This document shows, one piece after another, positions 45,893 to 64,000 of a stretch of 64,000 nucleotides of DNA. The notes beneath the pieces are model-generated. The model was not told the origin of the DNA. It did no database searches and was given only the letters and a program-made list of their open reading frames with translations. The stretch is from NCBI RefSeq assembly GCF_002300555.2, contig NZ_NTHN02000020.1, positions 1 through 64,000 on the forward strand, read 5' to 3'. The stretch comes from Alloyangia mangrovi. GTDB taxonomy: Bacteria; Pseudomonadota; Alphaproteobacteria; Rhodobacterales; Rhodobacteraceae. Position 1 is the stretch's first letter. Every line of letters starts with the position of its first letter. The translations under genes and the position numbers were made by a program.

Positions 45893-46747
45893 TCAGCTCA
45901 ACCAGTCGGGGTCGAGCTCGGGCAGGGGGATCGCCGTGAGCAGCGTTCGGGTGACGTCCGAGGCCGGAGCGCGGAAGACCGCATCGACCGAGCCCTGTTC
46001 GACGATCTCGCCACGGTTGAGCACGATCACGCGGTCGCAGAGGTGGCGGATCACCGAGAGGTCATGGCTGATGAAGGCAATGGTCAGCCCCATCTCGCGG
46101 GCAAGCTGCTTGAGCAGCAAGAGCACCTGCGCCTGACTCGAGACGTCGAGCCCCGAGACGATCTCGTCGGCAAGAATGAACCGCGGCTTCAGCGCGATGG
46201 CCCGAGCGATGCCGACCCGCTGGCGCTGGCCGCCCGACAGCTCGTGCGGGTAGCGCTCGGCAAAGGCGGCGGGCAGGCCGACCTTGCCGAGCGCGGCGAT
46301 CGCGTCGGCCCTGGTGCCGCCGAGCCCGTAGCGCTTCATCGGCTGGGCGATGATCCGCCAGACCTTGTGCCGCGGGTTGAGCGAGGACATGGGGTCCTGG
46401 AAGATCATCTGCAGGTCGCGCCGGAGCGGCCGCAGCGCCGACTCGTCCAGATGGCCGATGTCCCGCCCCTCGTAGAGCACGCTGCCCGAGTCCGGCTCCA
46501 GCAGCCGCACCAGCACCCGGCCGGCGGTGGATTTGCCCGAGCCGCTCTCGCCGACGATGCCGGTGATCTGGCCCGCCGGGATGTCGAAGCTGAGACCTTT
46601 GAGCACCTCATTGCGCGGCGCGGCGCCGAGCAGGGGTTTGCGCGCGAGGTCGGGGAAGGAGAGGCGCAGGTCGCGGACCGAAAACAGGCTGGGGGCGGGC
46701 GCCACGGCCTCGCTTGCGGTCGTGCGGGTCTGGGTCTGAGCGGTCAT
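45893..46747 (-). CDS. Peptide/opine-type ABC transporter ATPase (DppF/OppF-like)
   Basis: A 284-residue ATPase: Walker A GESGSGKSTAG, Q-loop QMIFQDPMSSLNPR, signature LSGGQRQRVGIARAI, Walker B RFILADEIVSGLD (Asp-Glu) and the H-loop ISHDLSVIRH. The C-terminal extension is the oligopeptide-transporter tail. It is the last gene of the ABC set, with its ATG overlapping the stop of the first ATPase. It energises the importer with the partner ATPase. Confidence 0.92.
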   Translation of the reverse strand: MTAQTQTRTTASEAVAPAPSLFSVRDLRLSFPDLARKPLLGAAPRNEVLKGLSFDIPAGQITGIVGESGSGKSTAGRVLVRLLEPDSGSVLYEGRDIGHLDESALRPLRRDLQMIFQDPMSSLNPRHKVWRIIAQPMKRYGLGGTRADAIAALGKVGLPAAFAERYPHELSGGQRQRVGIARAIALKPRFILADEIVSGLDVSSQAQVLLLLKQLAREMGLTIAFISHDLSVIRHLCDRVIVLNRGEIVEQGSVDAVFRAPASDVTRTLLTAIPLPELDPDWLS

Positions 46748-47640
46748 CGCGCGGCTCCTTGGTGCCGGGCGTCGTCCCGGGCGATGGCACCCTGCAGCTC
46801 GGCGATCAGCGTCTGCGGCACCGGCGAGAAGGGCCGGTCGAGATCCGCGTAGCTCGGCGTCGCCGCGATCAGGGCGCGGGTGTAGGGATGCGCGGGGTCG
46901 GTGAAGATGCGCTCGGTCGGCGCGTCCTCCATCACCTTGCCGGCAAAGAGCACGGTGACCTTCTGGCTGATCTTGGCGACCACGCCCATGTCGTGGGTGA
47001 CGAAAAGAACCGCCGTGCCGGTCTCCTGCTGCAGCTCGCGGATCAGCCGCAGGATCTGCTTCTGCACCGTCACGTCGAGCGCCGTGGTCGGCTCGTCCGC
47101 GACGATGAGCCGGGGCGAAGGGGCAAAGGCCGCGGCGATGAGCACGCGCTGCCGCATCCCGCCCGAAAGCTCGTGGGGGTAGCTCTCCATCACCCGCTTC
47201 GGATCGCGGATGTGCACCCGGTCCAGCAGCGCCAGCGCGGTGTCGCGGGCCTTCGCCCGGCTCCAGCCGTGGATCCGCACCAGCGGGTCGGTGATCTGCG
47301 GGCCGATCCGCCGCGCCGGGTTCAGCGCGGTGAGCGGGTCCTGCGGGATGAGCGCGGCGCTCTGCGCCACGGTCTTGCGCCGGGTCCAGGGGGTCATCGC
47401 GCCCAGGTGCTGCCCCTCGAGCAGGATCTCGCCCCCGGTCACCCGCAGGTTCTGCGGCAGGATGCCGAGCACCGCCTTGCCGATCATCGACTTGCCGGCA
47501 CCGCTCTCGCCGACGAGGGCACGCACCTCGCCGGGGCGCAGGCTCAGCGAGACGTCGCGCAGCAGGCGGTGGCCGTTGGGGAGCGCGATGCCGAGCTGCA
47601 TCACGTCGAGCGTGTTGGGATGGGTGTGCGAGCCTGTCAT
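46744..47640 (-). CDS. Peptide/opine-type ABC transporter ATPase (DppD/OppD-like)
   Basis: A 298-residue ATPase from ATG 47640, which overlaps the stop of the upstream permease. Walker A is GESGAGKSMIG, Q-loop ALIPQDPLTALNPA, signature LSGGMRQRVLIAAA, Walker B RLIVADEPTTALD and H-loop VTHDMGVVAK. HPYTRALIAATP is the family's C-terminal cysteine-free oligopeptide extension. A longer in-frame reading upstream crosses the permease and is rejected. Confidence 0.92.
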   Translation of the reverse strand: MTGSHTHPNTLDVMQLGIALPNGHRLLRDVSLSLRPGEVRALVGESGAGKSMIGKAVLGILPQNLRVTGGEILLEGQHLGAMTPWTRRKTVAQSAALIPQDPLTALNPARRIGPQITDPLVRIHGWSRAKARDTALALLDRVHIRDPKRVMESYPHELSGGMRQRVLIAAAFAPSPRLIVADEPTTALDVTVQKQILRLIRELQQETGTAVLFVTHDMGVVAKISQKVTVLFAGKVMEDAPTERIFTDPAHPYTRALIAATPSYADLDRPFSPVPQTLIAELQGAIARDDARHQGAAR

Positions 47641-48500
47641 TGGAGCACCGGATCGAAGCGTTGTTTGAGACCCTCGCCGAGGGTCGAGAAGCTCAGCACC
47701 GTCAGGAAGAGCGCGATCAGCGGGAAGAGCAGCACCCACCAGGCGAAGTGGATGGCGTTGCGCCCCTCGGCGATCATCGAGCCCCAGGTCGGATCGTCCG
47801 AGGAGATCGACAGGTTCACGAAACTGAGGATCGCCTCGACGATCACCGCGATGCCCATCTCGAGCATCAGCAGGGCGATGATGGAGGGCAGCACGTTGGG
47901 AAGGATCTCGCTGATCAGCGTGGTGAGGCGCCGGGCGCCGCCGATGCGGGCGCTGTCGACGTAGTCCATGCGCGCCTGCACCATTGTCTCGGCGCGGATC
48001 ACCCGGGCAAACCGTGTCCAGTCGATCAGAGCGATCGCGGCAATGACCGAGGTGAGTCCCGTGCCTATGACCGCCACCAGCAGCACCGCGAAGAGCACCG
48101 GCGGGAAGGCCATCCAGATGTCGACGAGTCGCGAGATCACCCGGTCCCACCAGCCGCCGAAATAGCCCGCGACCAGACCGAGCGCCGCGCCGAAGAGACA
48201 GGTGGCGGTGGCGGCGACGAGGCTGACGAAAAGCGCGATGCGCGCGCCGTGGATCATCCGCGACAGCACGTCCCGGCCAAGGCTGTCGGTGCCCAGCCAG
48301 TAGCCGGGCTCGCTGCCGTCCATGAACGCGGGAGGCAGCCGCTCGAGCATAAGATCCTGCATCAGCGGATCCTGCGGCGCGACCAGCGGGGCGAAAATCG
48401 CGGCGAGCGCCACGGCGCCCAGCCAGAGCAGTGGCAGCCAGAGCCGGAGGTTGAGCCTGCGGGCGCGGCGGCGCGGCGCGGCGGCGGTGATGTCAGCCAT
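47637..48500 (-). CDS. Peptide/opine-type ABC transporter permease (DppC-like)
   Basis: A 287-residue inner-membrane protein with about six spans. It has the family opening APLVAPQDPLMQDLMLERLP followed by YWLGTDSLGRDVLSRMIHGA, characteristic of DppC/OppC permeases, and the EAA-like coupling segment VDSARIGGARRLTTLISEIL. It overlaps the DppB-like gene by 8 bases and the next ATPase by 4. Confidence 0.93.
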   Translation of the reverse strand: MADITAAAPRRRARRLNLRLWLPLLWLGAVALAAIFAPLVAPQDPLMQDLMLERLPPAFMDGSEPGYWLGTDSLGRDVLSRMIHGARIALFVSLVAATATCLFGAALGLVAGYFGGWWDRVISRLVDIWMAFPPVLFAVLLVAVIGTGLTSVIAAIALIDWTRFARVIRAETMVQARMDYVDSARIGGARRLTTLISEILPNVLPSIIALLMLEMGIAVIVEAILSFVNLSISSDDPTWGSMIAEGRNAIHFAWWVLLFPLIALFLTVLSFSTLGEGLKQRFDPVLQ

Positions 48501-49501
48501 GGCGGAGCCTCGGGTTCAGCAGCGTGTACGACAGGTCGACAAGCAGGTTGATGACGATGAAGAGCGCCGCGAAGAGCAGCACGATGCCCTGGATCAGCGG
48601 CAGGTCGCGGTTGATCACCGCGTCGATCGCCATGTTCCCGAGCCCCTCGTAGGAAAAGATGCGCTCGACGATCACCGTGCCGCCGATGAGGAAGGTGAAC
48701 TGCACCCCGACAAGGGTGAGCGTCGGCAAGAGCGCGTTGCGCAGCGCCTCGCGCAGGATCACCGAGGTCTCGGAAAAGCCTCGGACGCGGGCAAGCGTGG
48801 TGTAATCCTGCAGCAGCACCTCCTTGAGGTTCTGCTTCAGCAGCTGCGCGATCATCGCCGCGAGCGGCAGGGCCAGCGCCAGCGCGGGCATCAGCATGTG
48901 CGACAGGGTCGATTGGACGACATCGAAGCGCCCTCGCACGATCCCCTCGAACGTGTAGAAGTTGGACGTGAAATCGACGTCGATCTGCGGATCGATCCGG
49001 CCCGAGATCGACAGCACCGGCCAGAGCACCCCGAAGAGCAGCACGAAGACCAGCCCCCAGAGGAAGTCCGGCACCGAGAGCACCGCGCCGCTGGTCAGGT
49101 CGAGCCCGACCTCGGTGGCGGTGCCGCGGCGGCGCGCGCCGATCACCGCGATGGCGACCCCGAGCGCGACTGCGATGGCCAGCGCCATCACCGACAACTC
49201 CAGCGTGGCGGGCAGACGCGAGAGCACCAGCTCGTCGACCGGGCGGCGCAGGGTGATCGAGGTGCCGAAATCGCCCTGCAGCACGCCGCCGAGCCAGATG
49301 ACGAACTGCTCGGGCAGGCTCTTGTCGAAGCCGTAGAGGGCCTCGAGCGTGGCGATGTCGGCCTCGGTCGCGCCGGGGGGGCAGCATCATCGCGATGGGG
49401 TTGCCGGGCGCCACGCGCACCAGCACGAAAACCACGACGGCCACGCCGAAGAGCGTGACAGCGGTGGTCAGAAGGCGGATCAGGATCGTCTTCAGCAGCA
49501 T
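48493..49501 (-). CDS. Peptide/opine-type ABC transporter permease (DppB-like), frameshifted in a G7 run
   Basis: The first 42 residues (MLLKTILIRLLTTAVTLFGV through NPIAMMLPP) and the rest (FVIWLGGVLQGDFGTSITLR onward, with EALRNALLPTLTLVGVQFTF) lie in different frames. The break is a seven-base run at 49375-49381 on the plus strand (G7). With six, the reading continues MMLPPGATEADIATLEALYG as in normal DppB proteins, about 335 residues. Six membrane spans and the DppB EAA loop (LARVRGFSETSVILREAL) are present. Likely a sequencing artefact. Confidence 0.87.
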
Positions 49502-49573
49502 GGGGTCAGGGCCCTCCAATGCGCCCGAGCCGAGGTTAAGCTCGGCCCGGGCGGTCTTGCGCGATGCGGGGGA

Positions 49574-51112
49574 TCAGGCCTTGGAGATCGCCTGCGGCAG
49601 CAGGTCGCCCGAGGTATAGGGCGTCACCGCGACCGCGCTGCGGAACACCACCGGCATTACGTATTGCAGCAGCGGGATGACGTAGCCTTCCTCGGCGATG
49701 TAGCGCGAGACGTCCTTGTAGCCGGCGATGCGCTTGTCCTCGTCGGGCTCGCCGAAGAGCGGACCGATCTTCTCGACCAGGTCGGCGCTGTCCCAGACCG
49801 CGTGCGGAGAGGGGCCGAACATGGCAAACCCGGTCGAGGTTGAGGGATCGCCGATCGAGTTGCCCCAGTTGTAGAAGGCCGCAGGGGCAAGCGTGTCGGC
49901 GGCGCGCAGCTCGTAGTGCTTGGCGATCTCGTAGACCTCGATCTCGGCCTCGATGCCGACCTTGCGCCACATGCCGACGATCGCCTGGATCATCTCGTAG
50001 TCCTTGGGCTTGAAGCCGCGCGTCGTCTGGATGGTGAATTTCACCGGGGTGTCGGTGGAGTAGCCCGAGGCTGCCAGCAGCTCCTTGGATTTCTCGGGAT
50101 CGTAGTCGACCGTGATGCTCTCGTCATAGGCGGCATAACCCGGCACCTCGAGCGTCGAGAGCGGCACGCCGTAGCCGCGCAGAAGGCGATCGATGATCAG
50201 TTGCTTGTCGATGGCGTGATGGGCGGCAAGCCGCACGTTCTTGTCGAGCATCACGTCGATATCGTTGAGGAAGATCATGCCGATGTCGGTGATCGGCACG
50301 GCTTCGCCCTCGAGCCCGTCCTTGGCGATCAGCCGGTCGTATTCTTCGTAGGGGATGTTCGAGGTGACGTCGGAGTTGCCGGACTCGATCTCGGCCACGC
50401 GCGAGGCGGCGTCGGTGACGAACTTGATGGTCACGGTCTCGAAGGCAGGCTTTTCGCCCCAGTAGCCGGGGTAGGCCTTGAGCCGCACGTAGGCGCCCTG
50501 CTCGAAGGCATCGACCATGTAGGGGCCGGTCCCGATAGGGGCCTTCTCGAAGCCCTCGGCGCCGACCTTCTCGTAGTAGGCCTTGGGCAGCACGAAGGCC
50601 GTCAGGAAGGCCATCCACTTGAACAGCGCCGGCTCGAATTCCTTGACGTCGGCGGTGATGACGTTGCCGTCGACGCTGAAGTTGCCGATCTTGCCCCAGA
50701 CGAACTGCATGGGGTTGCCGGTTGCGGGATCGCCCGCGCGGGCCAGCGACCAGACGATGTCCTCGGGGGTCAGCGCGTCGCCATTGTGCCAGGTGACGCC
50801 CTCGCGGACGGTCATGGTGATCTGCGACTTGTCCTCGCTGAAGCCCCAGTCGGTCAGCAGCCCGGGGCCGAACGACAGGTCGGGAGCCTGCGCGATGTAG
50901 CGGTCGAAGACCGCGAGGTAGACCGACTGCAGCGCCGGGTTCACCGCGGCGGGGCCGGTGGTCGGATCCCAGCTCTGCACGGGCAGGTTGTAGGCGATGG
51001 TCAGGCTGTCGGCACCCTCTGCGAGCACGCTGCTGCCGGTCGCCAAAAGCGCCGTGAGCGCAGCCGAGGCGCCCATGAAGCCGCGCCGGGATAGAGGTAG
51101 GCTGGAGGTCAT
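49574..51112 (-). CDS. ABC transporter substrate-binding protein, SBP family 5 (peptide/nickel/opine type)
   Basis: A 512-residue periplasmic protein with a twin-arginine-like signal (LSRRGFMGASAALTALLATG). SBP_5 features include DWGFSEDKSQITMTVREGVT, WHNGDALTPEDIVWSL, APIGTGPYMV and AIDKQLIIDRLLRGYG. The family binds peptides but also opines, sugars and aromatic conjugates. In this operon an indolic or amino-acid-derived ligand is possible. The start at 51112 has GGAGA upstream; 51184 is rejected. Confidence 0.9.
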   Translation of the reverse strand: MTSSLPLSRRGFMGASAALTALLATGSSVLAEGADSLTIAYNLPVQSWDPTTGPAAVNPALQSVYLAVFDRYIAQAPDLSFGPGLLTDWGFSEDKSQITMTVREGVTWHNGDALTPEDIVWSLARAGDPATGNPMQFVWGKIGNFSVDGNVITADVKEFEPALFKWMAFLTAFVLPKAYYEKVGAEGFEKAPIGTGPYMVDAFEQGAYVRLKAYPGYWGEKPAFETVTIKFVTDAASRVAEIESGNSDVTSNIPYEEYDRLIAKDGLEGEAVPITDIGMIFLNDIDVMLDKNVRLAAHHAIDKQLIIDRLLRGYGVPLSTLEVPGYAAYDESITVDYDPEKSKELLAASGYSTDTPVKFTIQTTRGFKPKDYEMIQAIVGMWRKVGIEAEIEVYEIAKHYELRAADTLAPAAFYNWGNSIGDPSTSTGFAMFGPSPHAVWDSADLVEKIGPLFGEPDEDKRIAGYKDVSRYIAEEGYVIPLLQYVMPVVFRSAVAVTPYTSGDLLPQAISKA

Positions 51113-51194
51113 CTTTCTGTCTCCTGTTGGTCTATGTGGCCCGGTTTGCCTGGGCTCTTCGGTGGATTTGGATTCGGTCTTCAAAAGTCTGTAC

Positions 51195-51233: not shown

Positions 51234-52781
51234 CTACTTGAGGCCCTGCGCCGCAAAGAAGCCCGATCCCGCGCCGGTTCCGGCACCGGGCCAGCAGGCT
51301 GCCCCGATCATGTGCAGATTGGCGATGGGCGTGCGCCCGTCGGCAAAGCCGCGTACCGGGCGGAAAAGGAAGTTCTGCGTCAGGTGGTGCGAGCCGCAGA
51401 TCTGGTCGCCGCCGACGAGATTGGGATTGCCGGCCTCGAGATCGAGCGGCGAGACGGCGGTCTTTGCGAGGATGGTCTGGCGGAATCCGGGGGCCTGTTC
51501 CTCGATCAGATCGAGGATGCGCTCGGTCATCGGTGCCTTCGCATCTTCCCAATTTCTCTGGACAATCTCTGCCTTGGCATCGCCCCTGATGGCGGCGGGA
51601 ACGACTCGGGCCTGGACCCAGAGCGTGTGCTTGCCCTCCGGCGCGCGGCTCGGATCGAACAGCGTCGGCTGACCCACCACCAGCAGCGGCGTCGCGGGCA
51701 GTTGCCCGGCCAGCGCCTCGGCATAGGTCTTGGCGGCAACCTCGACCGAGCGGCCCACGTGGACATAGGCGTAGCGCTTCAGCGCCTCGGCGGCCCAGGG
51801 TACCGGCGCGTCGAGCGCGAGGTGCAGCATCATCGTGCCGGGGGCGTGGCGGAAGCTCTCGAGCCCGCGGTCGAAGCGCGCATCGCCCGAGCCATCGCCG
51901 AGCATCCGGCGCAGGTGTTTCGGGGCAAGACCGGCAAGAATGGTTGAAGCCTCAATCGTTTTACCGCACGCGATCACACCGGTGACGCGGCCGTTCGCAT
52001 GCAGGATCTGCTCGACCTCGACGTCGCATTCGACCGAGCCGCCATGCGCCTCGATCATGCTGACGAGCGCGCGGGTGGCGACCTCCGCGCCGCCCTTGCC
52101 GATCACCATGCCCATCGCCTGACCGGCCATCGCCTCGAGGTAGGGGAAGATCGCCCCGCCCGCGATGTCGGGGGCAAAATCGAGATGCATGCCCCAGGAG
52201 GCCAGCGCCGTGCGCAGGCGGGGGTCCTCGAAAGTCTCCTCCAGCCAGCTGCGCGGCGAGGTCATGAGAAAGCGCGCCATGTCGAGGCTACGGGCCGTGC
52301 CGAGCTTGCGCCAGCTCTGCCAGAGAAACCGGGCCAGCGGACCGCGGCGCATCGGCGTGCCGAGCAGCCCGCCGAGCACGCCGGCGCGCTCGGGGAACTC
52401 GGCCATCAGCGCGCGCCAGGTCACCTTGTCCGCCTCGGAGGCGAAGCCCGCCAGCGTCTCCTCGACGTCGGTGGAGATGCCGACATGGTCGCCGGGTTCC
52501 AGCGCCTGCGCGAAGGGGTGCGAGACCGGCACGAACTCCAGGCCGTGCCGGGCCATCTCGGCGCCGTGCCGGGCCATGAAGGCCGAGCCGGCGAACATCG
52601 ACAGGTTCATCGCCGCGACGTCGTGGCGGAAGCCGGGCAGGGTGAGCTCCTCGGTGCGCACCGCGCCGCCCGGGGTGGGGCCGCGTTCGAGCACCCGCAC
52701 CGGCTTGCCGCGCGCCGCGAGATCCGCGGCGGCGACCAGCCCGTTTATCCCGGCGCCGATAATGAGGATGGGACCCGGCAT
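51234..52781 (-). CDS. Phytoene-desaturase-like FAD/NAD(P) oxidoreductase A
   Basis: A 515-residue flavoprotein. The FAD-binding fingerprint is ILIIGAGINGLVAAADLAAR, then VLERGPTPGGAVRTEE, and the C-terminal FAD region is LHMIGAACWPGAGTGAGSGF. It belongs to the CrtI/amine oxidase-like superfamily, but no carotenoid genes are near. It starts 5 bases after iorB. It is paralogous to the product of 57000-58573: both share the VVGGD.. / LEGYN or LEAGNPNLVGGD segment and the HPGPG / WPGAGTGAG end. Substrate unknown; indolic ring or side-chain oxidation is a guess from context. Confidence 0.82.
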   Translation of the reverse strand: MPGPILIIGAGINGLVAAADLAARGKPVRVLERGPTPGGAVRTEELTLPGFRHDVAAMNLSMFAGSAFMARHGAEMARHGLEFVPVSHPFAQALEPGDHVGISTDVEETLAGFASEADKVTWRALMAEFPERAGVLGGLLGTPMRRGPLARFLWQSWRKLGTARSLDMARFLMTSPRSWLEETFEDPRLRTALASWGMHLDFAPDIAGGAIFPYLEAMAGQAMGMVIGKGGAEVATRALVSMIEAHGGSVECDVEVEQILHANGRVTGVIACGKTIEASTILAGLAPKHLRRMLGDGSGDARFDRGLESFRHAPGTMMLHLALDAPVPWAAEALKRYAYVHVGRSVEVAAKTYAEALAGQLPATPLLVVGQPTLFDPSRAPEGKHTLWVQARVVPAAIRGDAKAEIVQRNWEDAKAPMTERILDLIEEQAPGFRQTILAKTAVSPLDLEAGNPNLVGGDQICGSHHLTQNFLFRPVRGFADGRTPIANLHMIGAACWPGAGTGAGSGFFAAQGLK

Positions 52782-52786
52782 GGCGC

Positions 52787-54337: not shown

Positions 54338-54347
54338 GGGCATAGCC

Positions 54348-56556: not shown

Positions 56557-57003
56557 TCAGAAATCGTGGTGTCGGATGTCGTGCAGCACGCGCTGCAGCA
56601 GATCGTTCAGCGTTGCGCGCTCGCCTTCGTCGAGCACCTGCAGCATGCGGTCGCGCATCGCCTGCATCGCCGGCCAGGCGGTCTCGTAGGCGGCGCGGCC
56701 CGCGTCGGTGAGGCTGATCTTGCGGAACCGGCTGTCGCCGTCCTGCGCCTCGCGCCGGACCAGCCCGGCGCTCTCCATCGCATCGAGCGTGCGCGACAGG
56801 GTCGGCTGCTTGATGACGGTCAGCACCGAGAGCTCGGTGATCGTGTAGGGTCCGCTCTCTGCCAGCACCGCCAGCGCCCGCATTTGCGGCACCGAGACGC
56901 CGACCTCCTTGAGCGCGGTCTCCACGCTGCGGTTGTAGCGCGCGCCGATGCGGTTCAGCAGGTAGGGGGTGAAGGCCTCGAGGTCTTTGGGCGCGCCCGT
57001 CAT
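56557..57003 (-). CDS. MarR-family regulator embedded in the oxidoreductase operon
   Basis: A 148-residue winged-helix protein: LLNRIGARYNRSVETALKEV, then the HTH region PYTITELSVLTVIKQPTLSR and TLDAMESAGLVRREAQDGDS, with the MarR wing RFRKISLTDAGRAAYE. Its ATG at 57003 overlaps the stop of the preceding FAD oxidoreductase, so it is co-translated with pathway enzymes. It probably senses a pathway aromatic or CoA ester; operator unknown, with the TACAT repeats at 59441-59455 one candidate. Confidence 0.9.
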   Translation of the reverse strand: MTGAPKDLEAFTPYLLNRIGARYNRSVETALKEVGVSVPQMRALAVLAESGPYTITELSVLTVIKQPTLSRTLDAMESAGLVRREAQDGDSRFRKISLTDAGRAAYETAWPAMQAMRDRMLQVLDEGERATLNDLLQRVLHDIRHHDF

Positions 57004-58573
57004 GCGCCCAGCTCCTTCGCCACCAGGAAGCCCGAGCCACCCGACAGGCCCGGCCCGGGATGGGTCGAGGCGCCGATGTGGTAGAGCCCCTTGAGGTCGG
57101 TGCCGTGGCGGGTGCTGCCCGCGAAGGGCCGCCAGAGGAAGAACTGGTCGAGCGTGCAGGCGCCGCCGTAGGGATCGCCGCCGACGAGGTTCATGTTGTA
57201 GCCCTCGAGATCGGCGGGCGAGATCGCGCGGCGGGTGACCACGCTTTCCGAAAAGCCGTCGATGTGCCGCGCGAGGATGGCCTCGATACGGTCGGCATAG
57301 GCCTCGCGCAGGGCCTCGGTCCAGGTGCCGTCGGCGGGCACGTCGATCTCCCCGGCGGCATCGCCTTTCACGTGGCGCGGTGCCTCGGGCATCTGCAGCC
57401 AGAGCACGCTTTGCCCCTCGGGGGCGCGGCTCGGGTCGGCGGCGCAGGGCTGGCCGACGCAGATCGTCGGCACCTCGGGCAGCATGCCGCGCTCGGCCTC
57501 GTTGCCGGCCTTGGACACGCCGTCGAGCCCCGGCGTCAGATGCAGCAGCTGCACCTTCTCGAGCCCCCCCGGTCTTCCATTTCACCGGCCCGTTCAGCAG
57601 GTAGTGAAGCTGGAAATTGCCCTTGCCGTACTGATACTTGCGCAGATCATCCTTGCGCGCTGGCTCGGCAGCAAGCGTGCCGTAAAGCTGCTGCGGGGTG
57701 ACCGAGGCAAGCACCGTCCTTGCCGCAATCGTCTCGCCGTTGGCGAGGCGCAGGCCGGTGGCGCGATCCCCGTCACGGGTGATCTCGGCGACCTCGGCCG
57801 ACGTGCGGACGCTGCCGCCATGTTCCTCGATGATGGCAATCAGGCCGCGCACCATGTTGGAGGCGCCCCCCCTTGACCACCGGGGCCGAGGCGGCCTCGA
57901 GCGCAAAGCCGATCACCTTGCCCATCTGCCCCGAAAAGGCCGCTTCCGGCCCCAGCCCCGCGTGCAGGCACCAGGGCGCCCAGAGGGCCCGCGAGAGATC
58001 GCTTTCGAAGGCGCTTTCCAGCCAGGAGCGCATCGGCTGCAGCGCCCCGCCCATCACCGTGGCAAGGCCGCGCGGCTTGCGTTTCCAGGCCTCCTTGGCG
58101 AGCAGCTTGGCGGTCTGCTTTGACCAGGGATCGCCCCCCATCAGGCCAAAGAGCAGCCCCGCGTCGGCCCCGAACGCGTCGAGATCGCGCGCGAGCTGCG
58201 CGCCGTCACCGTCATGGGCGGCATCGAAGGCGGCGACGTTGGCGGCGCGGTCGGTGGTATAGGTCAGCGCGCGCCCGTCCGGCAGCAGCACGCCGGTCGG
58301 CGTGTCGGTGGCGCAGAATTCCACGCCGTGCCGCGCGAGATCGGCGCCGAGCGCGCCATGCGCCCCGCCGGTCACCCACAGAACGAAGGTGGTGGCGAGG
58401 GGGTCGTAGGTGACCCCCTCGGCCAATTCCTCGGAGCGCATGCAGCCGCCCGCGACCGCCTCGCGTTCGAACACGGCGACGCGCTTGCCCGACCGGGCGA
58501 GCAGGGCCGCCGCGGTCAGCGCGTTGATGCCGCTGCCGATGATGGCAACGTCGGGAGAGGTCGGGGCGGTCAT
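57000..58573 (-). CDS. Phytoene-desaturase-like FAD/NAD(P) oxidoreductase B, two homopolymer frameshifts
   Basis: The FAD fingerprint is VAIIGSGINALTAAALLARS followed by VFEREAVAGGCMRSEE. The reading frame breaks at C7 runs 57866-57872 and 57564-57570; with six C in each, the protein is continuous (VVKGGASNMVRGLIAIIEEH, then VKWKTGGLEKVQLLHLTPGL) and about 523 residues long. The C-terminus LYHIGASTHPGPGLSGGSGF completes the FAD domain. It is a paralogue of the enzyme at 51234-52781, with IorA/IorB between them. Two shifts of the same type in one gene argue for sequencing error. Confidence 0.8.
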
Positions 58574-58592: not shown

Positions 58593-59384
58593 TCAGGCTG
58601 CGACCAGCGCCAGCGCGCGGATCGGCGAGCCGGTGCCCTTGACGATCTTCAGCGGCGCGGCGACGAGGATCGCGCCCTTGGCCGGCAGCTTGTCGAGGTT
58701 GGTCAGCGAGGCCAGCCCGTAGCGATTGTGCTTGTGCAGCAGGTTGTGCGCGGGGAAGGGGATCTCGAAGCCGCCCGCCGCGCCGGCGTCGGTGCCGATG
58801 CACTGGGTGCCCCAGCCGAGCGCCTTCTTCTCTTCCATCAGGTACTGGATGACCTCGGCGGTCGGGCCGGGGGTGTGCGGGCCTGCCTCATCGGCGTTAA
58901 GATAGGCGGCCTCGTCGGTGTTGAACCGGTCCCAGTCGGTGCGCATCAGCACCCATTCGCCTTCCTTGATCTCGCCGTGCTCGGCCTCCCAGGCCTTGAC
59001 GTGCTCGACGGTCAGCAGGAAATCGGCATCCTCGGCGGCCTCTTTCGAGCAGTCGATGACATTGGCGGGGGCGGCGAAATACTGCGGGTTGATCGTGTCG
59101 ACCGAGCCGTCGGCATAGTCCTTGCCGGTGATCCAGTGGTGCGGCGCATCGTAGTGGGTGCCCGAGTGCTCGCCGATCTTCAGCCAGTTCCACGCCCAGA
59201 ACGGACCGCGGTCGCCGTACTCGGAGATCTTGTGGATCTCGATCTTCGGCGTGTCGTCGGCGATTTCCGGCGGCAGCTTCAGCAGCGGCGTGTCGGGGCC
59301 GAGCGGGGCGGTGCAGTCGATCACCTTGATCGAGCCGTCGAGCAGGCCGCTGGCCAGCGTCGCGAGGGCGTCTTGGTTGGTCAT
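58593..59384 (-). CDS. Cyclase-family metal hydrolase, isatin hydrolase-like
   Basis: A 263-residue protein with the family's metal-binding motif GEHSGTHYDAPHHW (H-x-G-T-H-x-D-x-P-x-H) and IDCSKEAAEDADFLLT, FNTDEAAYLNADEAGPHTPG and CIGTDAGAAGGFEIPFPAHN. Length and the KIEIHKISEY and KGAILVAAPLKI segments fit isatin hydrolases better than the shorter kynurenine formamidases (about 210 residues). Isatin hydrolase opens the lactam of isatin to isatinate, a step in indole-3-acetate breakdown that leads to anthranilate. First gene of the long minus-strand operon. Confidence 0.72.
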   Translation of the reverse strand: MTNQDALATLASGLLDGSIKVIDCTAPLGPDTPLLKLPPEIADDTPKIEIHKISEYGDRGPFWAWNWLKIGEHSGTHYDAPHHWITGKDYADGSVDTINPQYFAAPANVIDCSKEAAEDADFLLTVEHVKAWEAEHGEIKEGEWVLMRTDWDRFNTDEAAYLNADEAGPHTPGPTAEVIQYLMEEKKALGWGTQCIGTDAGAAGGFEIPFPAHNLLHKHNRYGLASLTNLDKLPAKGAILVAAPLKIVKGTGSPIRALALVAA

Positions 59385-59743
59385 TCTGAAGGTCTCCCTG
59401 TGGTGGTCTCTGTGACTCGTTGGCCGGTCGTTCTTTGAGGTACATGCAAATACATATAATTTTTTTCTTCAAGAACGAAATTTATAATCCCGTCATTTTT
59501 CGGCCCTGATCGATCCTTCGCCGCGGCAGGACTATCGTGATCGCTGCGAATTTGAGCATACATTAGGCCAATACACGCAAGGGATGCGCTTCGCGGAGAT
59601 GGCTTGGACGACGATCGTTGCAGGGCGCACTGCCCTTCAGTCGCAGGTCTGGAAGAAACAACTTGAAGCCTAAAATAAATGGCACTAGCCTTCATCCCGA
59701 CGCGGCCACCATGCCGCACGGTCTGTCCAGGGAGAGAAGTCAG
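59385..59743. other. 359-base divergent promoter region
   Basis: No gene. AT-rich near 59440-59480 with a T-run. It contains the TACAT direct repeat at 59441-59455 close to the isatin-hydrolase-like start. The half nearer the cupin gene has ordinary composition, with AGGGC-N5-GCCCT near 59620-59640 as a weak inverted repeat. It should hold promoters for both divergent units. Confidence 0.5.
59441..59455. promoter_or_regulatory. TACAT direct repeat, one helical turn apart
   Basis: TACATGCAAATACAT: two TACAT words start exactly 10 bases apart, 57-71 bases upstream of the isatin-hydrolase-like start codon. This places two contacts on one DNA face. A regulator site for the MarR proteins is possible but not shown. 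Confidence 0.4.
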
Positions 59744-60172
59744 ATGACCCAGCAACGAGTCGTTCCCGTCGTCACGCGGTCCGCAGAACTCGACGAAGGC
59801 ACCCAGCAATCGGGCGATTGCGTCCGCAAGTCCGGTGTCAGCCCGCAGCACACGCCGGCCACCAAGATCTGGTTCGGCCGCGTCACCAACGAGCCGGGCC
59901 ACCGCTCGCCGCCGCACCACCACCAGGAATGCGAGACCGGCGGCTACGTGCTGAAGGGCCACGGCCGCATCTACTTCGGCGACGACTACAAGGAATACAT
60001 CGACATGTTCGAGGGCGACTTCGTCTTCGTCCCGCCGTTCATGCCGCATGTCGAGGTCAACATGAGCACCACCGAAGAGCTCGTCTGGCTGACCTGCCGC
60101 ACGCCGGACAACCTGGTGGAGAACCTCGAGGATGTGCCGGACGAGGCGCTCGAAGGTTACCGCCGCGCCTGA
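59744..60172 (+). CDS. Small cupin-domain protein
   Basis: A 142-residue single-domain cupin. Motif 1 is GHRSPPHHHQECETGGYVLK-G (His-rich metal site with Glu), and motif 2 is GDFVFVPPFMPHVEVN. Such cupins can be isomerases, decarboxylases or dioxygenases, or non-catalytic, so no reaction is assigned. The start at 59744 has GGGAGA. It is followed after 26 bases by an FAH-family gene and forms a three-gene plus-strand unit. Confidence 0.82.
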   Translation: MTQQRVVPVVTRSAELDEGTQQSGDCVRKSGVSPQHTPATKIWFGRVTNEPGHRSPPHHHQECETGGYVLKGHGRIYFGDDYKEYIDMFEGDFVFVPPFMPHVEVNMSTTEELVWLTCRTPDNLVENLEDVPDEALEGYRRA

Positions 60173-60198
60173 TCGGTGTGGCCTGAAAGGATCATCGC

Positions 60199-61041
60199 AT
60201 GAAACTTCTTCGCTACGGACCCGTCGGCGCCGAGCGCCCGGGACTTCTCGACGCGGACGGCATTATTCGTGACCTCAGCGGCATCGTCGCCGACATCGAC
60301 GGCGCGACGCTCTCGCCCGAGGGCCTCGCCCGCATCGCCGCGCTCGATCTCTCCACGCTGCCGCGCGTCGAGGGCACCCCGCGCATCGGCTCGGCCATCG
60401 CGCGCCCCGGCAAGTTCCTCTGCGTCGGCCTCAACTACGCCGACCACGCCCGCGAGACCGGCAAGGAGCCGCCCGCCGAGCCGGTGCTCTTCGGCAAAGC
60501 GACCACCGCGCTCTGCGGCCCCTATGACAACGTCGAAATCCCCCGCGGCTCGGACCGTACCGACTGGGAGATCGAGCTCGGCATCGTGATCGGCACCCGC
60601 GCCAAATACGTCTCCGAGGCCGAGGCGCTCGATCATGTCGCCGGCTATGCGCTGGTCAACGACGTCTCGGAGCGCCGCTTCCAGTCCGAGCGCGGCGGCC
60701 AGTGGATCAAGGGCAAGAGCCATGACACCTTCGGCCCGGTGGGCCCGTGGATGGTGACCAAGGACGAGATCGCCGACGTGCAGGACATCGACCTCTGGCT
60801 CGACGTCGACGGCGAGCGCCGCCAGACCGGCAACACCAAGACGATGATCTTCGGCGTCGCGCATCTCGTGCACTACATCTCGCAGTTCATGACGCTCGAA
60901 CCGGGTGACATCATCGCCACCGGCACCCCTCCGGGCGTCGGCCTGGGGATGAAGCCCCCGACCTTCCTCAAGGCCGGTCAGGTGGTCACCCTCGGCGCAA
61001 CCGGGCTTGGCGAGCAGCGCCAGCTGATGGTGCAGGCATGA
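60199..61041 (+). CDS. Fumarylacetoacetate hydrolase (FAH)-family protein
   Basis: A 280-residue protein: an N-terminal small domain, then the FAH core KFLCVGLNYADHARETGKEP, PVLFGKATTALCGPYDNVEI, DWEIELGIVIG (metal-binding Glu residues), SERRFQSERGGQWIKGKSHD, and GDIIATGTPPGVGLGMKPPT. Members hydrolyse C-C bonds in fumarylpyruvate or diketo-deoxy acids, or act as hydratases. The stop overlaps the SDR start, so the two products probably act in one pathway. Confidence 0.88.
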   Translation: MKLLRYGPVGAERPGLLDADGIIRDLSGIVADIDGATLSPEGLARIAALDLSTLPRVEGTPRIGSAIARPGKFLCVGLNYADHARETGKEPPAEPVLFGKATTALCGPYDNVEIPRGSDRTDWEIELGIVIGTRAKYVSEAEALDHVAGYALVNDVSERRFQSERGGQWIKGKSHDTFGPVGPWMVTKDEIADVQDIDLWLDVDGERRQTGNTKTMIFGVAHLVHYISQFMTLEPGDIIATGTPPGVGLGMKPPTFLKAGQVVTLGATGLGEQRQLMVQA

Positions 61042-61847
61042 GCATCGATTTCAACGGGCTGAAGTCCGCGCTGACCGACCTCTCGGGCAAGACCGCGATC
61101 GTCACCGGCGCGGCGCGCGGGCAGGGCGCGATCGAGGCCGAACTCCTGGCCACCGCCGGCGCATCGGTGCTGATCTGCGATGTGCTCGAAGCAGAGGGCG
61201 TCGCCCTTGCCGAGCGGATGACCTCCGAGGGTCTTGCGGTCCGCTTCAAGCGCCTCGACGTTACTTCCGAGGCGGAATGGGCCGAGGCTCTAGCGGAGGT
61301 CGAGGCGTGGACCGGGCGGCTCGACGTTCTGGTCAACAACGCCGGGATCATCAACCGCAAGATCATCCGCGACATGTCGGTCGAGGAATGGCGCAAGGTG
61401 CTCGACGTGAACGCCACCGGCGCCTTCATCGGGATCAAGCTCGCGGCGCCGATGATGGCCGCGACGGGGAGCGGTTCGATCGTCAACATCTCGTCGAACA
61501 GCGCCTTCTCGGGGCATTACGACCCGGCCTACACCTCGTCGAAATGGGCACTGCGGGGCCTGACGCGCACGGCAGCGATGGAATTCGCCGAGCAGGGCGT
61601 GCGCGTCAACGCGATCTGCCCGGGGCTGATCGTCACCGACCTCAACCGCGGCTCGCCACACCTCGGGCCGATGATCGGCATGACCCCGATGCAGCGCGCA
61701 GGCGAGGCGACCGAGGTGGCGCAACTGGTGCTCTTCCTTGCGTCGGAGGCCTCGGGCTTCATCACCGGCGAGGATTTCGTGATCGACGGCGGCTTCACCG
61801 CCGGCGCCGGCTACCGCCGCGTCGCCCGCGAGACCGGGCTGCTCTGA
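61038..61847 (+). CDS. Short-chain dehydrogenase/reductase
   Basis: A 269-residue classical SDR: cofactor loop TGAARGQG (residues about 22-29), VNNAGI, catalytic Ser in NISSNSAFSG, catalytic YTSSK (Y-x-x-x-K) and VNAICPGLI. The acidic residue after the second strand (CDVLEAE) suggests NAD. ATGA overlap with the FAH gene. It probably oxidises a hydroxy acid or sugar-derived intermediate. A strong terminator follows. Confidence 0.9.
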   Translation: MSIDFNGLKSALTDLSGKTAIVTGAARGQGAIEAELLATAGASVLICDVLEAEGVALAERMTSEGLAVRFKRLDVTSEAEWAEALAEVEAWTGRLDVLVNNAGIINRKIIRDMSVEEWRKVLDVNATGAFIGIKLAAPMMAATGSGSIVNISSNSAFSGHYDPAYTSSKWALRGLTRTAAMEFAEQGVRVNAICPGLIVTDLNRGSPHLGPMIGMTPMQRAGEATEVAQLVLFLASEASGFITGEDFVIDGGFTAGAGYRRVARETGLL

Positions 61848-61852
61848 CCAAG

Positions 61853-61866: not shown

Positions 61867-61871
61867 TCGAG

Positions 61872-61900
61872 AAGGCCCCCGCATCACCTGCGGGGGCCTT
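61872..61900. terminator. Strong bidirectional terminator
   Basis: AAGGCCCCCGC (61872-61882) and GCGGGGGCCTT (61890-61900) form a perfect 11-bp stem with a 7-base loop, followed by TT then CCC on the plus strand and preceded by GA-rich sequence. It separates the plus-strand SDR from the convergent MarR gene and would stop both transcripts. Confidence 0.9.
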
Positions 61901-61930
61901 TTCCCGTCCTTGCCGTGTCCGGCGCCCGGT

Positions 61931-62395
61931 TCAGTGCTTGTTGCGAATGTCGAGCATGATCGAGATGCCGCGTGCCGCGTCGGTCTCGGAGATCTCCGAG
62001 AACATGCCGTCGATCCAGCGCAGGTGCTCGGCGACCATCTCGTCCATCAGCGTGCGCCCGGCGGGGGTGATCAGCACGCGAAAGGCGCGGCGGTCACTTT
62101 CCATGGTCTGGCGCTCGGCCAGCCCGTCGGCGACCAGCCGGTCGACCACGCCGGTCACATTGCCGTTCGAGACCACAAGCTGCTGCGACAGCTCGCTCAT
62201 CTTCATCCCATCGGGCGCGGCGTGCAGCGCGGCCAGAACGTCGAAGCGGGGCAGGGTGGTGTCATAGCCCGACCGAAGGCGTTCGCGCAGGGTGCCCTCG
62301 ACGTGGCGCACGGCCTTGAGCATCTGCAGCCAGAGTCGCAGGCGCTGGCGGGCGAGGTGCTCATCGGTCACCTCGTGTTCGGTCGGTTGTTCCAT
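61931..62395 (-). CDS. MarR-family regulator (aromatic/CoA cluster)
   Basis: A 154-residue winged-helix protein: LRLWLQMLKAVRHVEGTLRE, MKMSELSQQLVVSNGNVTGV and DRLVADGLAERQTMESDRRA, then RVLITPAGRTLMDEM. Family members of this type often repress aromatic-acid or CoA-ester pathways and respond to the CoA ester. It is the last gene of the minus-strand set that extends beyond the window. ACTTTAAAG at 62441-62449 lies in its upstream spacer. Confidence 0.9.
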   Translation of the reverse strand: MEQPTEHEVTDEHLARQRLRLWLQMLKAVRHVEGTLRERLRSGYDTTLPRFDVLAALHAAPDGMKMSELSQQLVVSNGNVTGVVDRLVADGLAERQTMESDRRAFRVLITPAGRTLMDEMVAEHLRWIDGMFSEISETDAARGISIMLDIRNKH

Positions 62396-62527
62396 CAGTC
62401 ACTCTCGGCGGAAAATTGTGCCAAACCGTTTCAGGTCTCGACTTTAAAGGTTGCGTGTATTCCGGCAGGGCGCAATCGAAAAGCCATAAAGTGCCGTGGT
62501 CTGACGGGTCAGTGGCGCGGAAATGCT

Positions 62528-62920
62528 TCAGGCCGGAAGCTTGCGCGGCTTGCCCGCCTCGTCGATCGCCACCAGCAGCACGTCGGCGCTGAGGATCCGG
62601 CGGCAGGCGCCGTCGGGCTCGGCCCAGGCGGAGATGGCAAGGTTGAACGAACTGTTGCCGCGCCGGCTGAGATCGGCGTGCAGGGCGAACTCCTCACCAC
62701 CGTAGAGAGGCGCATGGAACTGCACCTCCTTGAGCGCCGCGATCACCACGTCGCCGCCCGAGATCTTCCGGCCGGCAAGCCCGGCGCCATGGTCGAGCTG
62801 CGACAGGATCCAGCCGCCGAAGACCGGGCCGCGGGCCGTGGTCTCGGATTGCGGCGCGACGGCGAGGATGCGCGGCGCGCTGCCCGGGCGCACCGCGAGG
62901 TCAGTCCCGGCGTCAGCCAT
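62528..62920 (-). CDS. Acyl-CoA thioesterase, hotdog fold (YciA/BFIT type)
   Basis: A 130-residue hotdog protein: GPVFGGWILSQLDHGAGLAG, VVIAALKEVQFHAPLYGGEE, SRRGNSSFNLAISAWAE, and LSADVLLVAIDEAGKPRKLP. The GGW-x-x-x-x-D pattern is typical of YciA-type thioesterases. It would release or hydrolyse acyl-CoA or aryl-CoA intermediates. Its start overlaps the ridA stop by 8 bases. Confidence 0.85.
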   Translation of the reverse strand: MADAGTDLAVRPGSAPRILAVAPQSETTARGPVFGGWILSQLDHGAGLAGRKISGGDVVIAALKEVQFHAPLYGGEEFALHADLSRRGNSSFNLAISAWAEPDGACRRILSADVLLVAIDEAGKPRKLPA

Positions 62921-63326
62921 GGGGGATGACCGCCGTCGCCTCGATCTCGACCTTCGCGGCGTCTTCCATCAGGGCGCAGACCTGGACCACGGCCATGGCC
63001 GGGAAGTGGCGGCCGATCACCTCGCGGTAGGCGGCGCCGAAGGCGCGCAGGTTGTCGAGGTATTCCTGCTTGTCGGTAATGTACCAGGTCAGGCGCACGA
63101 GATGCTCGGGGCGGGCACCCGCCTTGTCCAGCACGGCGACGATGTTCTCGAGCGTCTGGCGGAACTGGCCGACCATGTCGGCATGTTCCCATTCCTGCTG
63201 CGCGTTCCAGCCGACGAGCCCGCCGGTAAAGACCATCCGGCCTTCGGCCAGCATGCCGTTGGCATAGCCTTTGGCGGGCACCCAGCCGTCGGGCTGAAGG
63301 AACATGTGGGGTGTCAGTGCGGTCAT
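62913..63326 (-). CDS. RidA/YjgF/UK114-family protein
   Basis: A 137-residue trimer-forming protein: GWVPAKGYANGMLAEGRMVF, TGGLVGWNAQQEW, then LENIVAVLDKAGARPEHLVR and LTWYITDKQEYL, with EIEATAVIPHG at the end. The catalytic-type Arg of RidA (in xxRxxxxV) is represented by LVRLTWYI. RidA members deaminate reactive enamines and imines, which fits a pathway through amino-substituted rings such as 2-aminobenzoyl-CoA. The start at 63326 is preferred to 63359, which lies inside the upstream gene. Confidence 0.88.
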   Translation of the reverse strand: MTALTPHMFLQPDGWVPAKGYANGMLAEGRMVFTGGLVGWNAQQEWEHADMVGQFRQTLENIVAVLDKAGARPEHLVRLTWYITDKQEYLDNLRAFGAAYREVIGRHFPAMAVVQVCALMEDAAKVEIEATAVIPHG

Positions 63327-63339
63327 GCGTCGGTCTTTC

Positions 63340-63768
63340 TCAATCGGGGGTCTTGGCAATCAGGTAGAGGGTCATGGCATCGCGCATCTCGGCGGGCCAT
63401 GCGGCGGAGGTGCCCTGCGCGACATCGGCGTGGATCACCGTCGCCTGGCAGGTGAAGCGGCGTTCGTCGCCGCTGGTGCAGGTGATGGCGAAGCTGGCCG
63501 AAGACCGGCCGATCCGCTTCACCCCGAGCGACAGGTCGAGCCAGTCGCCAAGCCGCGAGGGCGCATGGAAGCGGCAGTCGATCTGCCCCATCGGGGTCGC
63601 CATGCCGCTGCCCGAGATCATCTGGTCCCAGCCCATGCCGACCGCATCCGCGAAGAAGCGTTCCTGCACGGCCGAGATCATCTCGAAATAGCGCGGGTAG
63701 AAGACGATCCCGGCTGGGTCGCAGTGGTTGAACTCCACCTGCCTGCGGATCGTGAAGATCTCGCTCAC
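63340..63768 (-). CDS. 4-hydroxybenzoyl-CoA thioesterase-like protein (hotdog fold)
   Basis: A 142-residue protein with the hallmark VEFNHCDPAGIVFYPRYFEM (Asp of the D-P-A-G-I-V-F-Y motif is the usual catalytic residue), then GQIDCRFHAPSRLGDWLDLS and VIHADVAQGTSAAW. The family hydrolyses aryl-CoA thioesters. Its start overlaps the stop of the SDR gene. This is the second thioesterase within 1.3 kb. Confidence 0.87.
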   Translation of the reverse strand: MSEIFTIRRQVEFNHCDPAGIVFYPRYFEMISAVQERFFADAVGMGWDQMISGSGMATPMGQIDCRFHAPSRLGDWLDLSLGVKRIGRSSASFAITCTSGDERRFTCQATVIHADVAQGTSAAWPAEMRDAMTLYLIAKTPD

Positions 63769-64000
63769 GTCTCGCCTCCGGAGATCGAGATCGCCTGGCC
63801 GGTGACCATGTCGGAGCCCTCGCCGCAGAGCCAGAGCGCGGCGCGCGCCACGTCCTCGGGCGGCACCAGCCGGTGCATCGGGTTGGTCGCCTCGAGCGAG
63901 GCGCGGGCTTCCTCGGTGGAACGGCCGGTCTTCTCGACGATATTTGCGATCGAGCGTTCGGTCATCTCGGTGTCGAGAAAGCCGGGGCAGAGCGCATTGA
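63765..64000 (-). CDS. Short-chain dehydrogenase/reductase, C-terminal fragment
   Basis: Only the C-terminal 77 codons are inside the window; the reading frame continues past the right edge. Visible are NALCPGFLDTEMTERS (the conserved segment after the catalytic site), MHRLVPPEDVARAALWLCGE, and VTGQAISISGGET, the usual SDR end. Likely a 3-hydroxyacyl-CoA-type dehydrogenase of the same CoA cluster. An apparent start at 63965 is internal. Confidence 0.85.
   Translation of the reverse strand, partial: NALCPGFLDTEMTERSIANIVEKTGRSTEEARASLEATNPMHRLVPPEDVARAALWLCGEGSDMVTGQAISISGGET

Follow-up and report, generated by a model that had tools for sequence, protein, structure and literature searches.

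Gene content of the isatin hydrolase island

The stretch of Alloyangia mangrovi DNA analyzed here (64,000 nucleotides, hereafter the window, being the first 64,000 of 86,494 contig bases) carries a putative catabolic island in which an isatin hydrolase gene shares a minus-strand run with iorA and iorB, the genes of a thiamine pyrophosphate (TPP)-dependent 2-oxoacid oxidoreductase. From position 59384 down to 45893, this run comprises the isatin hydrolase gene (58593-59384), FAD-dependent oxidoreductase 1 (57003-58573, phytoene-desaturase-like), a MarR regulator (56557-57033, Pfam MarR), IorA (54348-56492, with TPP_enzyme_C), IorB (52787-54349, with a POR domain and DUF6537), FAD-dependent oxidoreductase 2 (51234-52790), and an ATP-binding cassette (ABC) importer ending with its ATPases; a CoA ligase gene (44043-45680) comes next. 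Judged by isatin hydrolase (97-98.5% identity), the closest named relatives are strains of Alloyangia pacifica, and the same gene order is annotated, intact, on the 205-kb A. pacifica plasmid NZ_CP022192.1. Since this order is repeated there and parts of the cluster were found again in 80 named genome loci (the best 80 of 314 relatives by isatin hydrolase), the cluster is not a chance assembly. Homologs of FAD oxidoreductases 1 and 2 occurred at 61 and 60 of these 80 loci, respectively. A preliminary description of the window had proposed an indole/isatin to anthranilate-CoA island, and the genes it named (ligase, importer, two FAD oxidoreductases, IorA/IorB, hydrolase, MarR, thioesterases, RidA, and a short-chain dehydrogenase/reductase, SDR) were all found where it had placed them; it did not list a divergent cupin-FAH-SDR trio or, within the IorAB operon, a MarR gene (56557-57033). 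The island is largely as proposed there, but its central step differs, with IorAB proposed to act on isatinate.

The product of 58593-59384 (Pfam Cyclase) matched isatin hydrolase B (PDB 4j0n) over its whole length (phmmer E = 2e-128). The published signature of the type-B enzymes consists of the Mn ligands H-x3-H-x-D, a GLAS or GLQC motif, and a WxW/FxW pocket (PMC6117287), and it is complete in this protein, with the Mn-ligand motif HSGTHYD at 73, GLAS at 223, and WAWNW at 63. The Mn site and the GLAS motif were present in all 80 named-genome homologs. As anticipated in the preliminary description, this "cyclase" is an isatin hydrolase by family membership, with a predicted activity of converting isatin to isatinate. 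Like it, the 4j0n protein of Roseibium (Labrenzia) aggregatum belongs to the same family over the whole length and has the Mn site and GLAS, and the R. aggregatum IAM 12614 locus (L074) shares the operon core, with the hydrolase followed by an FAD oxidoreductase, MarR, IorA, and IorB; the words operon and gene cluster are absent from the main text on the enzyme (PMC6117287). In a class-wide sample in which the hydrolase alone was sought, it was present in 9 of 289 genomes. Elsewhere, in locus L140 (5137-8331), a cyclase with a GLSS motif adjoins a molybdopterin oxidoreductase and is probably no isatin hydrolase.

Association of IorAB with isatin hydrolase

Both IorAB subunits fell below the cut-offs of the NCBIfam indolepyruvate equivalogs, with 293.9 bits for IorA against TIGR03336 (cut-off 650.9) and 43.6 bits for IorB against TIGR03334 (cut-off 205.8), and IorB exceeded the cut-off of the subfamily NF006179 (654.9 bits against 348). 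Invariant cysteines of IorA lie in Fe-S-like motifs, with Fer4_10 reaching just 19.5 bits, under its cut-off. Neither subunit had a PDB sequence match at E up to 0.001.

The distribution of the genes was analyzed in a family sample of 238 genomes from 237 genera (E up to 1e-60 for the hydrolase, 1e-100 for IorA, and 1e-150 for the anthraniloyl-CoA monooxygenase/reductase, ACMR, described below) and in a phylum sample of 398 genomes, three hydrolase-bearing ones of which are also in the family sample. Two types of IorA were distinguished, namely type 1 (66-72% identity to the window protein; 48 family genomes, two of them with contig-end-cut genes placed by identity) and type 2 (51-56% identity; 11 family genomes, including 4 that carry type 1 as well). 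In a tree built from 64 of the 98 IorA proteins collected, type 2 (8 rows) formed a fully supported clade apart from type 1. In the family sample, type-1 IorA was present in all 46 genomes with the hydrolase compared with 2 of the 192 without it (Fisher p = 3e-47), and the hydrolase was found in none of the seven type-2-only genomes at E up to 1e-60. A similar result was obtained in the phylum sample, where type-1 IorA (62-76% identity) occurred in 23 of 25 hydrolase genomes, representing 14 of 16 genera, compared with 2 of 373 others. ACMR was likewise found in 42 of the 46 hydrolase genomes vs 40 of the 192 others of the family sample. Nine of the 46 family genomes had no hydrolase-IorA pair inside 20 kb and both genes were retained in all nine, some of which may represent pairs split by draft contigs. 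Among the 80 named loci, IorA lay within the fetched DNA at 70 (58 of the 62 with at least 6 kb on each side), and the remaining 10 had type-1 IorA elsewhere in the same genome. One genome with type-1 IorA and no hydrolase (G442, searched to 1e-5 elsewhere in the genome) has a contig that ends inside the FAD oxidoreductase adjoining IorA. The co-occurrence of hydrolase and type-1 IorA is thus very strong, and the chemistry proposed for IorAB is hypothetical.

The arrangement of the genes in relatives points in the same direction. Sulfitobacter indolifex and Paracoccus have stand-alone hydrolase-MarR-IorA-IorB units. The pathway of genomes G733 and G798 is distributed over two places, one with IorA-IorB-thioesterase-ACMR-bicupin-FAH (followed by a CN hydrolase in G798; the G733 stretch stops inside FAH) and the other with SDR-StyA-flavin reductase-isatin hydrolase-FAD oxidoreductase-transporter. 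In these split loci, IorAB therefore accompanies the CoA enzyme, and the hydrolase accompanies the enzymes acting on indole; no ligase homolog was found within the IorAB-ACMR stretch of either genome. IorAB belongs to the 2-oxoacid oxidoreductases, and isatinate, being a 2-oxo acid, could be its substrate; isatinate probably explains IorAB better than indolepyruvate does.

A role of IorAB as an indolepyruvate enzyme was considered and rejected as the principal interpretation, given the missed equivalog cut-offs; in addition, the hydrolase-MarR-IorA-IorB unit of S. indolifex has no annotated aminotransferase within 12 kb. In a literature search covering the top of long result lists and few subscription papers, isatinate was not recognised as a proposed IorAB substrate. 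In Bradyrhizobium, 1 mM indole-3-acetate (IAA) induced iorA 30.7-fold and iorB 7.6-fold (PMC3788728), which also speaks for the isatinate role. The iorAB genes of another report encode an unrelated molybdenum enzyme (PMC6365646).

Type-2 IorAB loci (L100-L107) have no hydrolase alongside, and a thioesterase homolog adjoins in seven of the eight, with other neighbours scattered. Residues switched between the two types were compared with shared conserved residues in the TPP region 425-520, which held 11 of 30 switched vs 31 of 233 shared positions at 95% conservation (p = 0.003) and 5 of 15 vs 27 of 167 under strict conservation (p = 0.15); the region was picked after the list of switch residues had been seen, and this weak result was left unused.

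A shared operator candidate and its probable regulator

A palindromic operator candidate (59441-59458) lies 57-74 bp upstream of the isatin hydrolase gene. It follows the consensus TATATGCA-NN-TGCATATA and is the sole site in the window at up to 3 mismatches, where none was expected. At up to 3 mismatches, the palindrome occurred no more than 200 bases upstream of the hydrolase at 60 of the 80 named loci (L007-L086) and in none of 1600 shuffles, a count that is partly by construction because the consensus was derived from the same loci. As a test, 18 type-1 IorA genes from other kinds of operon than the window's were examined, and 8 of them (L108-L111, L114, L117, L141, and L147) had the palindrome no more than 900 bases upstream at up to 4 mismatches, compared with 1.4% in shuffles. 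Among the 18, L091, L092, L097, and L145 carry a hydrolase gene at the same locus, L113, L141, and L142 come from genomes without a close hydrolase, and L112 and L115 are contig-end-cut. No palindrome was found upstream of the eight type-2 IorA genes. At L118, the palindrome is flanked by MarR-IorA-IorB on one side and the divergent ACMR gene on the other.

The regulator encoded at 56557-57033 probably acts as a repressor of the operon through this palindrome. Eight of its ten best PDB matches (3cjn, 7kym, 3cdh, 7kua, 7kki, 7kfo, 7l19, and 7krh) are named in a paper on the MarR proteins of auxin loci, 3cjn merely as a search model.

Proposed route from indole to anthraniloyl-CoA

Taken together, the overall best explanation, with a probability of roughly 0.68, is an aerobic isatin/indole to anthraniloyl-CoA island with IorAB at the isatinate step. 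A StyA-type monooxygenase (contig 68067-69297, minus strand, with a frame break) and a flavin reductase (contig 67574-68065, minus strand), both just beyond the window on the same contig, would epoxidise indole, and an SDR (contig 69334-70221, minus strand) together with FAD oxidoreductase 1 would oxidise the product to isatin, as suggested by their families and gene order; FAD oxidoreductase 1 is the proposed dioxindole-to-isatin dehydrogenase. Isatin hydrolase would then open isatin to isatinate (2-aminophenylglyoxylate), and IorAB, with TPP and Fe-S centers, would convert isatinate and CoA into anthraniloyl-CoA and CO2 by oxidative decarboxylation, a step proposed because of the co-occurrence, the operons, and the shared operator. 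An ACMR-type fusion would hydroxylate and reduce the ring of anthraniloyl-CoA, and RidA, thioesterases, SDR, and the cupin/FAH trio would process the product, in whatever order. The operon MarR would repress through the palindrome, and the CoA ligase would act on free anthranilate of other origin, such as from kynurenine. Phenylglyoxylate oxidoreductase, which yields benzoyl-CoA, catalyzes analogous chemistry, the oxidative decarboxylation of an arylglyoxylate to an aroyl-CoA, and it is likened to IorAB by this chemistry alone; the enzyme of Aromatoleum evansii is anaerobic, has several subunits, and uses NAD as its acceptor.

A broader proposal is that the "indolepyruvate ferredoxin oxidoreductase" linked to isatin hydrolase in aerobic Pseudomonadota is an undescribed CoA-acylating isatinate:acceptor oxidoreductase (with IorA as its alpha and IorB as its beta subunit), the ring then being broken by a cupin/FAH branch and not by beta-oxidation genes in the window lineage, G733, and G798; for this proposal as a whole, the odds appear about even. 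If true, degraders of indole, isatin, and indoleacetate would reach anthraniloyl-CoA directly, with no free anthranilate and no ATP spent, and an enzyme family now named for indolepyruvate would be reassigned. In the parts of the literature covered, no gene is assigned to the step from isatinate to anthranilate or anthraniloyl-CoA, and no reaction is assigned to the IadAB proteins of auxin-degrading loci (e.g., PMC9613470). A 2018 review questions whether isatin belongs to the indole pathway at all (PMC6221969). The island contributes a set of genes that is almost complete, together with a candidate enzyme for the isatinate step.

As for the starting compound, the A. pacifica ortholog of the StyA-type protein matched PDB 7z4x, which we take to be an indole monooxygenase, with E = 6e-182, and styrene monooxygenase with E = 8e-38. 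The genome of A. mangrovi had no IadD ortholog, the best match to Labrenzia IadD being 32% over half its length, and the contig had no match to iadC, iadD, iadE, iadG, or iadH with an E value of 1e-6 or lower. The presence of the indole-monooxygenase pair and the absence of an IadD ortholog therefore make indole the most likely start. The start from indole-3-pyruvate or IAA put forward in the preliminary description was not supported, indole being better supported by gene content than either, whereas its isatin hydrolase, its CoA route, and its forecast of an ACMR stood. IAA was also considered as the island substrate, and the iad search of contig and genome gave no convincing match other than kin of MarR, ligase, SDR, and hydrolase. 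Isatin itself may be a further start, given the four-gene hydrolase-MarR-IorA-IorB units.

Proposed anthraniloyl-CoA hydroxylation and lower pathway

Beyond the window, in the same numbering, the protein encoded at 64506-66791 (minus strand) scored 1217 bits against NCBIfam NF006101, above the cut-off of 1078. This family is labelled salicylyl-CoA 5-hydroxylase/oxidoreductase. The protein has the Pfam domains FAD_binding_3 and Oxidored_FMN, that is, an FAD monooxygenase fused to an old-yellow enzyme, presumably the domain make-up of 2-aminobenzoyl-CoA monooxygenase/reductase, and it is, by these assignments, an ACMR-type fusion. A gene of this kind had been forecast beyond position 64000, and with it the predicted CoA-thioester route gains support. 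To compare genomes with and without the hydrolase, ACMR stretches were taken from 19 of the 40 family genomes with ACMR and no isatin hydrolase and from 20 of the 42 with both. A ligase homologous to 44043-45680 (67-72% identity) lay near ACMR in 18 of the 19 no-hydrolase clusters, which suggests that the NF006101 protein suits anthranilate, and the window ligase is, by sequence, close kin of the ligases of classic anthranilate-CoA clusters. In the 20 hydrolase-genome stretches, the ligase was present in 16, and the ligase therefore does not discriminate between routes; its absence, once considered as proof of the direct route, was dropped for this reason.

Enoyl-CoA hydratase and acyl-CoA dehydrogenase were present in all 20 hydrolase-genome stretches and in 19 and 18, respectively, of the 19 no-hydrolase clusters, whereas the whole contig of the window has no match to either. 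ACMR proteins 75-96% identical to the A. pacifica query were found at 14 of the 80 named loci (L007-L015, L019, L020, L022, L030, and L031); neither hydratase nor dehydrogenase was seen at any of them within the DNA fetched, of which several have little on one side of ACMR, and FAH, cupin, and PaaI were present at 11. Since the other 20 hydrolase-genome stretches all have hydratase and dehydrogenase, the cupin/FAH form is a variant confined to close relatives of the window; G733 and G798 show a branch of this type too, in their case with a bicupin. In the window, the small single-domain cupin (59741-60172), the FAH-family hydrolase (60199-61041), and the SDR (61038-61847) form a plus-strand trio that points away from the isatin hydrolase promoter, and homologs of the cupin and of the FAH protein were each found at 17 of the 80 loci. 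These three may serve the lower pathway, and ring cleavage would proceed through this cupin/FAH branch.

Facing the trio on the minus strand are a second MarR regulator (61931-62395), a PaaI/hotdog thioesterase (4HBT, 62528-62920), a RidA family protein (62913-63359), a 4HBT_2 thioesterase (63340-63768), an SDR (63765-64000, cut by the window end, continuing to about 64509 and frame-broken close to its start), and ACMR. RidA is a plausible candidate, from its family, for an enamine hydrolase acting after ACMR. In Arthrobacter grown on anthranilate, a CoA ester was reported whose formula matches a deaminated product (PMC3534580), which would suit such a role. At L144 and L147, IorAB, thioesterase, ACMR, bicupin, and FAH stand in series, with a CN hydrolase too in L147, a gene row that suggests a gentisate-like ring cleavage of 5-hydroxyanthranilate.

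Comparison with known gene clusters

The island is probably, as far as its genes tell, a variant of the known indole, iad, and anthraniloyl-CoA pathways, with IorAB at the isatinate step as the new element. The classic aerobic 2-aminobenzoyl-CoA (abm) cluster shares with it the ACMR fusion, SDR, MarR, thioesterase, RidA, and a homologous CoA ligase, but the contig of the window lacks the enoyl-CoA hydratase and acyl-CoA dehydrogenase genes of that cluster, has the cupin-FAH-SDR trio, and carries the ligase 19 kb off. With the iif/ind indole cluster of Acinetobacter and Cupriavidus, it has the StyA-type oxygenase, flavin reductase, and SDR in common; the iif cluster has no gene making or using isatin, as far as the available part of its description goes (PMC6221969), whereas isatin hydrolase and IorAB lie in the island region. 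The iad locus of Variovorax, Achromobacter, and Bradyrhizobium resembles the island in IorA/IorB (IadA/IadB), isatin hydrolase (IadI), and a MarR repressor, and IadA/IadB have been termed exclusive markers of iad-like loci (PMC9613470). The island has these counterparts of IadA, IadB, and IadI, but on its contig lacks the IadCDE Rieske oxygenase as well as IadG and IadH, and has instead the indole monooxygenase, two FAD oxidoreductases, the family-5 importer, and ACMR.

Weighing of alternative explanations

Several observations weigh against a role of IorAB in isatinate oxidation. Type-1 IorA occurs without a close hydrolase in G515, G548, and G767, of which G515 is an unexplained exception in the family sample, and, at 1e-5, three of the seven type-2-only genomes have a remote cyclase (34-39% identity). 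Conversely, IorA is missing from G744, whose hydrolase homolog has GLSS replacing the isatin hydrolase motif, and, at E up to 1e-100, from G826 (L148), a genuine exception in which the hydrolase lies between the ligase type and ACMR. IorAB is also absent from the seen stretch of the Labrenzia iad hydrolase locus (20 kb per side) and from around the hydrolase in Neorhizobium (12 kb) and Azospirillum thermophilum (15 kb), the latter with the order AraC, SDR, StyA, flavin reductase, transporter, FAD oxidoreductase, hydrolase. As regards the operator, 10 of the 18 type-1 IorA genes examined from other kinds of operon have no palindrome, and none was found at the window's own ACMR operon. The 80 named loci, being the nearest of the 314 relatives, are biased toward the window. 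The predicted IorA structure (35 sequences, pLDDT 70) gave TM scores of about 0.35 and a root mean square deviation of about 20 Å against benzoylformate decarboxylase and other TPP enzymes, and this mediocre model speaks for a TPP fold only and carries no substrate information. Furthermore, the nearby ligase, iadC-K2 in Variovorax, and the hydrolase homologs of Deinococcus, which carry GLTS and not GLAS or GLQC, count on the same side, as considered next.

Isatinate might be decarboxylated or oxidised to free anthranilate for activation by the 44043-45680 ligase, a course through anthranilate like that of the preliminary description, with IorAB a mere indolepyruvate neighbour. The kinship of this ligase with those of classic clusters, its retention in 16 of 20 ACMR clusters of hydrolase genomes, and G826 speak for this; in G826, hydrolase, ligase, and ACMR occur together in the absence of IorA, so that the ligase route probably does occur in nature. 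Moreover, Variovorax iadC-K2 alone restored anthranilate in a strain without iadA and, by gene order, without iadB (PMC12633357, PMC9613470), so isatinate can become anthranilate without IadAB. Such a route leaves unexplained the pairing of type-1 IorA with the hydrolase in 46 of 46 genomes, even where unlinked, the operator common to some hydrolase and IorA genes, and the IorAB-ACMR tandem of G733 and G798, and it sits poorly with the equivalog cut-offs that IorAB missed. We regard it as unlikely for the island; since isatinate explains IorAB better, free anthranilate may not be the main route. An iad-like IAA locus, in which the FAD oxidoreductases and importer would act on IAA, is a doubtful reading of lower probability. 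The operon MarR is kin of IadR/IacR, and IorAB and isatin hydrolase are common to iad loci (PMC9613470; L145), but the contig has none of the iadC/D/E/G/H matches and the genome no IadD ortholog, and the indole-monooxygenase pair occupies the island instead.

It is very improbable that IorAB acts non-oxidatively, turning isatinate into 2-aminobenzaldehyde for an aldehyde dehydrogenase and the ligase, although IorA is a TPP enzyme and benzoylformate decarboxylase, another, decarboxylates phenylglyoxylate in this way. The Fe-S-like cysteines of IorA and the POR domain of IorB point to oxidation with an electron acceptor, and the gene families recognised in the window cluster include no aldehyde dehydrogenase. 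Deinococcus psychrotolerans (L099) has a row of ACMR, SDR, MarR, enoyl-CoA hydratase, acyl-CoA dehydrogenase, ligase, hydrolase homolog, TPP enzyme, and RidA, and in both L093 and L099 the GLTS hydrolase homolog is followed by a single-chain TPP enzyme, whose kin, from a PDB comparison with the protein of D. sp. KNUC1210, are benzaldehyde lyase, pyruvate oxidase, and acetolactate synthase. A non-oxidative version would call for just such an arrangement, with another kind of TPP enzyme at this step and a ligase beside it; the isatin activity of the D. psychrotolerans homolog is less sure because of its GLTS motif. The pairing of a hydrolase homolog with a TPP enzyme in Deinococcus, inside an ACMR operon in D. 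psychrotolerans, also counts in favor of the best explanation above. In Variovorax, C8H7NO3 and C7H7NO, formulas that fit isatinate and aminobenzaldehyde, accumulated strongly only with the whole iadC-K2 set overexpressed, and the C7H7NO compound, which might favor the non-oxidative reaction, did so in strains without iadA (PMC12633357). Oxidative, CoA-acylating conversion of isatinate by IorAB is the reading preferred here.

Remaining genes and frame breaks

The ABC importer occupies 45893-51184 on the minus strand, with two permeases and two ATPases (45893-49501; the permeases assigned via A. pacifica orthologs, permease 1 being frame-broken) and a family-5 solute-binding protein (49574-51184). 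The minus-strand AMP-forming CoA ligase next to it has an AMP-binding domain and scored 367 bits against TIGR02262, slightly below the cut-off of 375. Beyond the window, the contig also carries, on the plus strand, a thioesterase gene (67072-67491) and an AraC regulator gene (70182-71273). Compared with the intact orthologs on the A. pacifica plasmid, five frame breaks were detected within about 20 kb, namely one in permease 1 (48.5-49.5 kb), two in FAD oxidoreductase 1 (whose intact ortholog has 523 amino acids), one in the SDR at 63.8-64.5 kb, and one in the StyA-like gene. Since both breaks of FAD oxidoreductase 1 lie at or beside runs of seven G, sequencing error is likely there. On its other side, the ligase adjoins genes for a tripartite ATP-independent periplasmic (TRAP) transporter and NapF/NapD, of a periplasmic nitrate reductase cluster (40182-43759), an arrangement likewise present in A. 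pacifica.

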